Part shown: in pieces, positions 3,996-42,103 of the stretch
How the letters are laid out: the number at the start of each line of letters is the position of its first letter
Position numbering within the stretch: position 1 is the first letter of the stretch
Assembly (NCBI GenBank): GCA_017999615.1
Contig: JAGNLM010000015.1
Span: 1-42,103, forward strand
Reading direction: 5' to 3'
DNA length: 42,103 nt
DNA from: Gammaproteobacteria bacterium
GTDB taxonomy: Bacteria > Pseudomonadota > Gammaproteobacteria > JAABTG01
Notes under the pieces: generated by a model
Database searches by the model: none
The model's input: only the letters and a program-made list of their open reading frames with translations
Told to the model about the DNA's origin: nothing
Translations under genes and position numbers: made by a program

Positions 3996-4028
3996 GGGAG
4001 CTCGGTGCCGTCAGGACGGCGAGCTCCC
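3996..4028. terminator. Hairpin between convergent genes
   Basis: Nine paired bases (GGGAGCTCG with CGAGCTCCC) enclose a second short stem, CCGT/ACGG. The structure overlaps the TGA stop of the minus-strand gene and follows the plus-strand stop at 3980 by 15 bases, so it could serve both. Neither side has a good T run. Confidence 0.45.
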
Positions 4029-4655
4029 TGCCCTCTCCCTTTGCACCACCTTCGCGGCGCGCTCCAGCAAGACCGCCGGGGCCTCGGGACGTTTCGATCC
4101 CAGTAGCCCGAGCGCCACGTCCACGCAGGCCTGGTACGGGCCGTCCGGATTCGAGCTCAAAGGGGTCCCCGCGGCCTCCAGTGCCTTACCGACACTGGCG
4201 GCCAGGCGCAGGTGCAGGCGGTCGAGTCCGATCTGCGGCTCGCGCTCCGCGGTCTCCGCCGCACGACCCACGGCAGTCGCGAGCCGGCGAACGCAGGCCA
4301 ACGTGCCCGCCGCGTCCAGCGCGCCCAGGGGGTCCTCTTCGCCGCCGGCCTCCTGGCGGAGCTTGCGCCCCACGAGGCCCCAGCCGAGGCCGTCGAGGGC
4401 CTCCAGCGCGCCCACCAGTGCGCGGCCCGCCGAGGCGGCGTCGAGCAACCGGTCGGCCACCTCCCGCGAGCGCGTGCCCCGGGCCACCCCCCGGTCCGCC
4501 AGGTAGGCGTTGCAGGCGCTTGCCACGGCCACCAGGAACCCCTCCACACGGGGCCGCGGAAGCCCTGCGACCCCGGGCACGGACTCGAGCTCCGAACGCA
4601 ATCGTGCAAGCGCGTCCTTCGTCAGTTCGGGTGCCCGACTGGGGGCGTCGTCCAT
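4011..4655 (-). CDS. Unrecognised Ala/Leu-rich, probably all-helical cytoplasmic protein
   Basis: I do not recognise this 214-residue protein. It has no signal peptide or membrane segment. Long amphipathic helices are suggested by LTKDALARLRSELESVPG near the start, REVADRLLDAASAGRALVGALEALDGLGWGL in the middle (two segments) and PAVLLERAAKVVQRERAG at the end. The start ATG at 4655 has CGGAG just upstream and AAAGGG further up. The coding pattern (GC-rich third positions, intact frame) resembles its neighbours, so it appears native. It stands alone between two convergent or tandem neighbours, each with its own hairpins, so context gives no function. Confidence 0.65.
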   Translation of the reverse strand: MDDAPSRAPELTKDALARLRSELESVPGVAGLPRPRVEGFLVAVASACNAYLADRGVARGTRSREVADRLLDAASAGRALVGALEALDGLGWGLVGRKLRQEAGGEEDPLGALDAAGTLACVRRLATAVGRAAETAEREPQIGLDRLHLRLAASVGKALEAAGTPLSSNPDGPYQACVDVALGLLGSKRPEAPAVLLERAAKVVQRERAGSSPS

Positions 4656-4710
4656 CTCCGGGGTCCCTTTCAGACTGCCCAGACTGCGGTCGCGCAGCCG
4701 GGAGCTGCGC

Positions 4711-4758
4711 ACAAAAGAAACGGGCGGCACGCTTCCCGTTGGAGAACCGTGCCGCCCG
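4711..4758 (-). terminator. Intrinsic terminator of the sulfur globule-like gene
   Basis: Perfect 11-bp arms (4721-4731 and 4748-4758, CGGGCGGCACG and its complement) surround a 16-base loop. On the minus strand they are followed by TTTCTTTTGT. This is a complete Rho-independent signal about 50 bases after the stop at 4806, and it ends transcription before the unknown gene at 4655. Confidence 0.8.
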
Positions 4759-4771
4759 CCTGGACTGCGGC

Positions 4772-4795
4772 GGGGAGGGCCCGCAGGCCCTCCCC
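4772..4795 (-). other. Strong 3'-UTR hairpin of the sulfur globule-like gene
   Basis: Perfect 10-bp arms GGGGAGGGCC and GGCCCTCCCC enclose a 4-base loop, 10 bases beyond the stop codon and ahead of the terminator at 4711-4758. No T run follows, so it more likely protects the mRNA 3' end than terminates. Tandem 3' structures fit an abundant, stable message. Confidence 0.55.
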
Positions 4796-4805
4796 CATCA
4801 GGAAA

Positions 4806-5141
4806 CTACTTCTTCTCGGCGGGCGCAGCCGGGGCAACCGGCGCCGCGACCACGGGCGGGGCATAGTACGGAACGCCATAGCCCGGATAGCCGTACGGGC
4901 CGTAGTAGCCGCCGTAGTACGGATAGCCGTAGCCGGAGCCACGACCCCAGCCGCGGGACGAGAAGTTGGCGTCGACGTCGCCAAACATGTCACCAAGGCC
5001 GCTCCAGGGGCCACCGCCGTAGCCGCTGTTGCCCCAAGGGCCCCAGCCGCCCCACGGTCCACCCCAAGCCTGAGACTGCAGGGGCAGCGCTGCCGCGCCG
5101 ACCACCGCCGCAATCGCAGCAGCCATCGCAAGCTTCTTCAT
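4806..5141 (-). CDS. Sulfur globule protein-like secreted Gly/Tyr/Trp/Pro-rich protein
   Basis: This 111-residue protein begins with a clear signal peptide, [20 protein letters not shown], with cleavage probably after LQSQA. The mature part starts with Trp/Gly-rich repeats ([12 protein letters not shown]). It continues with an acidic patch ([16 protein letters not shown]), then a Gly-Tyr-Pro tract ([20 protein letters not shown]), and ends in an Ala/Pro tail. This order and composition match the sulfur globule proteins (Sgp, CV1-CV3 of Allochromatium vinosum), which coat periplasmic sulfur deposits in purple and other sulfur-oxidising bacteria. The start has GGGAGGAAA upstream. It is a single gene with its own promoter and terminator. 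The family match is from memory of the sequences; a generic glycine-rich secreted protein is the alternative. Confidence 0.75.
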
Positions 5142-5184
5142 AGCGATTTCCTCCCGATTGAAGGTGACGGTCAAGGTACCAGCC

Positions 5185-5201
5185 CCTGTCCTATGGACAG
5201 G
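5185..5201 (-). other. Hairpin in the 5' leader of the sulfur globule-like gene
   Basis: CCTGTCC and GGACAGG form a perfect 7-bp stem with a 3-base loop, midway between the predicted promoter and the start codon at 5141. It may stabilise the leader or modulate translation. Confidence 0.45.
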
Positions 5202-5244
5202 TGCCGGGCCGATATTGTGAGACCCGGACGGCCCGTGCCCATCT

Positions 5245-5273
5245 AGTAAAAGATCCCCGACGAAAAAAGTCAA
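5245..5273 (-). promoter_or_regulatory. Sigma-70-type promoter of the sulfur globule-like gene
   Basis: On the minus strand TTGACT (5268-5273) and TTTACT (5245-5250) are separated by 17 bases. The leader would be roughly 100 bases and includes the hairpin at 5185-5201. This is one of the best sigma-70-type matches in the window, consistent with strong independent expression. Confidence 0.65.
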
Positions 5274-41732: not shown

Positions 41733-42103
41733 GGGGGCGACCTGGTTTCGACGTGGGTTTCAAAGCCCCAGGTGCATGCCGAGGGAGCAGTCTTCCTCGT
41801 TAATCCGGCTGCAAACTTTAGCTGCCAACGACGACAGCTACGCCCTGGCCGCCTAAGGCTGGGCCTCTGACCGGAGCCGCGCCTGTGCGTCCGGAGACCG
41901 CTTCGGCGGTCGCTCAGGGGTAACCGCTCGCAGGATCGCGGCGAAGCCCGCCCGGGGCCGAGCCGTTAAAACCCTTACGGGCTCGCCGTCGTGCCGCCCT
42001 GCCCGTCGGGTGGTCGCCGGTCAAAGCTAATGACTGGGCTAAGCATGTAGAGCCGAAGGTAGAGAGCTTGCGGACGTGGGTTCGATTCCCACCGCCTCCA
42101 CCA
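41733..42103 (+). ncRNA. ssrA: Transfer-messenger RNA (tmRNA)
   Basis: This 371-base RNA rescues stalled ribosomes. The 5' end GGGGGCGACCTGGTTTCGACG and the 3' end with T loop TTCGATT, CGCCTCC and ACCA form the tRNA-like half; the acceptor strands pair with one G-T. The encoded tag reads ANDDSYALAA from a GCC resume codon at 41824, with stop TAA at 41854-41856. It ends in the ALAA recognised by ClpXP. The final CCA is the last base of the window, so the whole gene is present but its downstream context is not. Confidence 0.96.

Follow-up and report, generated by a model that had tools for sequence, protein, structure and literature searches.

Introduction

Stored sulfur is usually burnt by reverse Dsr (rDsr). 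Among the systems closest to the one described here, SgpA, SgpB and SgpC of Allochromatium envelop the sulfur globules of the periplasm in a protein coat (PMC10386293), while Beggiatoa leptomitoformis stores sulfur without either rDsr (rDsrAB) or sHdr (PMC11507549). Concerning the Ectothiorhodospiraceae, it has been stated that no member contains sulfur globule proteins (SGPs), and the same work argues that most chemotrophs should leave this family (PMC8877833).

The locus studied lies in a stretch of 42,103 nt, the whole of which is called the window (contig JAGNLM010000015.1, assembly GCA_017999615.1), of a Gammaproteobacteria bacterium with a genome of 2.47 Mb that is 98.98% complete. When genome contigs were scanned with the sgp protein as the query, six loci were obtained, in two MAGs only. 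The diverged orthologue used for the comparisons comes from CALMKJ01, a MAG labelled as uncultured Ectothiorhodospiraceae and the closest of the public ones, with approximately 90% identity in the DNA of the neighbourhood.

The sgp gene and its transcription unit

The features recognized were the following:

4806–5141, minus strand: sgp-like coding sequence of 111 amino acids, with a Sec signal peptide and a Gly/Tyr/Pro/Trp-rich mature chain (PF17228 match, shuffles, codon changes)
5067–5141, minus strand: part coding for the signal peptide, with predicted cleavage between QSQA and W (sequence inspection and family alignment)
5245–5273, minus strand: promoter-like block TTGACT-17 nt-TTTACT (by eye; conserved in genus orthologues)
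5185–5201, minus strand: leader hairpin CCTGTCC-ATA-GGACAGG in the 5′ untranslated region (fold and orthologue comparison)
5150–5155, minus strand: ribosome-binding site GGGAGG, 8 nt before the ATG (sequence; orthologues identical)
4772–4795, minus strand: 3′ hairpin GGGGAGGGCC-TGCG-GGCCCTCCCC, without a T tail (fold and orthologue comparison)
4713–4759, minus strand: intrinsic terminator, a long GC-rich stem followed by GTTTCTTTT (fold; conserved in orthologues)

The signal peptide displays, on inspection, a Lys-rich n-region, a hydrophobic core and a cleavage site SQA/W, and is predicted to be of the Sec type. In the alignment of the SGP family, the Ala at the cleavage site is invariant and is usually followed by an aromatic residue. 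Past residue 27, Gly makes up 27% of the chain, Pro and Tyr 14% each, and Trp 6%. The original prediction of a secreted protein rich in Gly, Tyr, Trp and Pro is thus in agreement with the 111-residue product, its predicted signal peptide and its composition. Compared to the diverged orthologue, there is an insertion of two residues (Gly-Tyr), and 11 codons differ, 10 of them by synonymous and one by nonsynonymous changes. This balance of codon changes shows that the coding sequence 4806–5141 is a real gene, with purifying selection acting on it.

Concerning the transcription unit, the leader hairpin, the 3′ hairpin and the intrinsic terminator that had been proposed were upheld by folding and by conservation in the orthologues. 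The stem of the leader is modest (z of −1.82 for the region, fold versus shuffles), and in the diverged orthologue it shows one C-to-T change with pairing kept as G-U. The same kind of change, also one C-to-T giving G-U, occurs in the first 3′ hairpin, with the stem kept. The fold of the 3′ region is much stronger, −70.3 kcal/mol with z of −5.98, as good a value being reached in none of 200 shuffles. The terminator of the orthologue keeps the stem and the T-rich tail, with the changes located in the loop or outside the core stem; a simple terminator scan misses it. The promoter-like block matches 9 of 12 positions by eye, with A absent from position 2 of the −10 element, and it is highly conserved in the genus orthologues. 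A consensus promoter scan did not list this block and gave no promoter for sgp, so the earlier qualification of the promoter as good was overstated. The Rfam search yielded only one hairpin, below threshold (BjrC80, 25.6 bits versus a gathering score of 80), which was regarded as a chance match.

Downstream of sgp there is a 239-residue open reading frame (4011–4730) that is syntenic in the orthologous contigs and gave no Pfam match.

Family membership of the encoded protein

The best and only Pfam match of the protein was SGP (PF17228), with 34.4 bits versus a cut-off of 26.7. The score of the window copy is thus modest (34 bits), and neither the NCBIfam families nor the solved structures searched gave any match. 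As a control of composition, nine composition-matched shuffles were run against Pfam, with no SGP match in any of them. A custom profile, built from SGP loci outside the family of the window, scored the mature chain at 54.6 bits, versus a maximum of 2.4 bits in 2000 shuffles. By its sequence, the protein is a bona fide member of the SGP family (PF17228).

The Sgp reading of the original prediction was therefore correct, PF17228 being above cut-off with negative shuffle controls, and the search for a better match to an unrelated glycine-rich family returned SGP alone. The suggestion that the protein may be a distinct Sgp variant did not hold, because the blocks GGPW, GDMFGD, RGxGRGxGYGYPY (with its GRGxGYG core), GYP and APVAP are aligned also in the paralogs and in ordinary SGPs of other families. 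The window gene thus adds one more ordinary member to a family already known.

Paralogs and gene neighbourhoods

The profile search of the host genome, where further sgp genes had been proposed to be looked for, revealed four SGP loci in all, above the PF17228 cut-off, unlinked and distributed over three contigs. Each of the three paralogs is followed by a GC hairpin and then by a T-rich stretch of its own, by which all four look like single-gene units. No obvious upstream element is common to the four, and no sulfur genes were seen beside any of them. The neighbours are psd/nuoN, Hsp20/CbpA-type and lpdA/pyrC-type genes and a RecD-like open reading frame (names assigned by eye, except psd). 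In agreement with the earlier observation that sgp sits away from sulfur-oxidation genes, none was recognizable among the genes called in the 42-kb window. A solitary sgp gene apart from sox is ordinary, since the three sgp genes of A. vinosum bear widely separated locus numbers (PMC10386293).

With respect to the edges of the window, a tyrosine integrase (1106–2569), a small HTH_17 protein (135–380) and a fragment similar to a tRNA 3′ end (near 2690–2725) were observed, and the syntenic contig L029 also stops near 2690–2725. The region 1106–2720 probably marks the border of an integrated element. At the other extreme (41733–42103), the contig breaks off at the 3′ terminus of the tmRNA gene, directly after a small smpB-like open reading frame, and this is possibly another integration site.

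Sulfur oxidation in the host and in the class

The presence of sulfur-oxidation genes in the genome, another point raised by the original prediction, was confirmed by profile searches. The soxB gene was found with 848.7 bits, soxY and soxZ were above the NCBIfam cut-offs, and there are two FccB-like genes (FCSD flavin domains), one of them near soxYZ. An exported-type DsrE-like protein is encoded in the soxYZ-fccB neighbourhood, and ATP sulfurylase on the same contig as soxYZ. No soxCD genes were seen adjoining soxB or soxYZ. Presumably, SoxAX is present in the host and SoxCD is absent.

The association of the family with sulfur oxidation was surveyed in 370 Gammaproteobacteria genomes, the same set being searched for each family. 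SGP was present in 55 genomes, dsrA in 123 and soxB in 158. Either soxB or dsrA was found in 54 of the 55 genomes with SGP versus 115 of the other 315 (Fisher p about 6e-20, a value not corrected for relatedness), which links the SGP family firmly to sulfur oxidation. Only a minority of the genomes with SGP (7/55) are devoid of dsrA. Besides the host, the genomes of this kind include G065, G202, G353, G267 and G283; in G202 and G353, which belong to one genus, soxB is present twice and SGP matches once in each. This suggests that independent lineages kept SGP in the absence of dsrA.

Absence of the usual re-oxidation route

The absences considered in this section come from profile searches of MAGs. 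No dsrA was found either in the host genome, which is 99% complete, or in the other genome of the same genus, versus its presence in each of the three remaining same-family genomes examined. Likewise, neither genome of the genus has aprA. The lack of dsrA and aprA means that the usual re-oxidation route for stored sulfur is missing. No persulfide dioxygenase was recognized, by length and sequence, among the four metallo-beta-lactamase matches of the genome, which on inspection resemble ComEC, an RNA-processing nuclease and two other non-ETHE1 types. The only strong HdrB match sits in a Qmo-like operon with a layout unlike that of sHdr, so sHdr, judged here with models not specific to it, is probably absent from the host.

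Contig C14 of the host genome (G000) carries (L053:4914-9951) an operon for an HdrA-like protein (428 residues), an HdrA-MvhD-like protein (722 residues), HdrC and HdrB. It resembles QmoAB-HdrCB, or the Qmo/Hdr of the Apr pathway, in a genome devoid of aprA though with ATP sulfurylase.

Proposed function

With a probability of about 0.88, the SGP of the window is expressed from its own transcription unit, exported by Sec and, most likely, engaged in coating sulfur globules together with its three paralogs. We infer secretion, coat assembly and sulfur storage as follows: Sec would export the protein to the periplasm, where the Gly/aromatic-rich chain would most likely self-assemble with the paralogs to form a thin coat around globules of elemental sulfur, and the globules would arise as Sox and a flavocytochrome c-type sulfide dehydrogenase oxidize thiosulfate and sulfide. 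This globule-envelope reading is well supported by the SGP-sulfur gene association together with the soxB, soxYZ and FccB-like genes of the host.

Concerning the fate of the sulfur, a rather unlikely proposal is that the genus, with SGP-coated globules, lost both rDsr and Apr, and either re-oxidizes the sulfur by an unrecognized route, e.g., with the Qmo/Hdr-like operon of contig C14, or keeps it as a dead-end or electron-acceptor store.

The same missing genes could be interpreted in another way, namely that the genus lost the pathway consuming stored sulfur, and that SGP has there given rise to a Gly/Tyr-rich structural protein that is exported and now serves another use, as a cell-surface or periplasmic matrix. 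The absence of dsrA and aprA from both genomes of the genus, with dsrA kept in the same family, and the lack of a persulfide dioxygenase among the four candidates would be accounted for. However, four copies have been kept above the family cut-off, the window copy under purifying selection, the soxB, soxYZ and fccB-like genes retained are capable of forming sulfur, and SGP goes with soxB or dsrA almost without exception in the survey, all of which renders this interpretation improbable. An unrelated glycine-rich secreted protein with a chance likeness to SGP, as the low-complexity composition and the lack of an NCBIfam match could suggest, is hardly credible, since shuffles of the same composition never reached SGP with Pfam or the custom profile, which refutes a composition artefact, and the protein has no other Pfam family and shares ordered motifs with SGPs of other families.

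Comparison with known systems

The reading as a globule envelope adds an uncultured genus to the likely globule formers, its closest record being labelled Ectothiorhodospiraceae in NCBI, a MAG label that may be loose. The gene is otherwise normal, and the noteworthy aspect is only its setting devoid of dsrA and aprA; with SGP genes kept there, the fate of the stored sulfur becomes a concrete question.

SgpD of A. vinosum is also an exported protein and is globule-associated, but it is a proposed coiled-coil protein (PMC10386293), in contrast to the Gly/Tyr-rich, SGP-family chain of the window. Compared by description, SgpA, SgpB and SgpC of A. vinosum share with the window SGP the small size, Sec export, Gly/aromatic-rich composition, several paralogs and scattered genes. 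A. vinosum needs rDsr to oxidize its stored sulfur, whereas the host genus is devoid of it. In this respect, the host is more like Beggiatoa leptomitoformis (PMC11507549), a gammaproteobacterium with Sox and FCSD and without rDsrAB, in which sulfur storage is established, while here it is inferred. Beggiatoa leptomitoformis uses a persulfide dioxygenase, of which none was recognized among the four metallo-beta-lactamase matches of the host. The setting of the host has precedent, with seven survey genomes having SGP and no dsrA, and with globule storage in the absence of dsr published for Beggiatoa leptomitoformis (PMC11507549).
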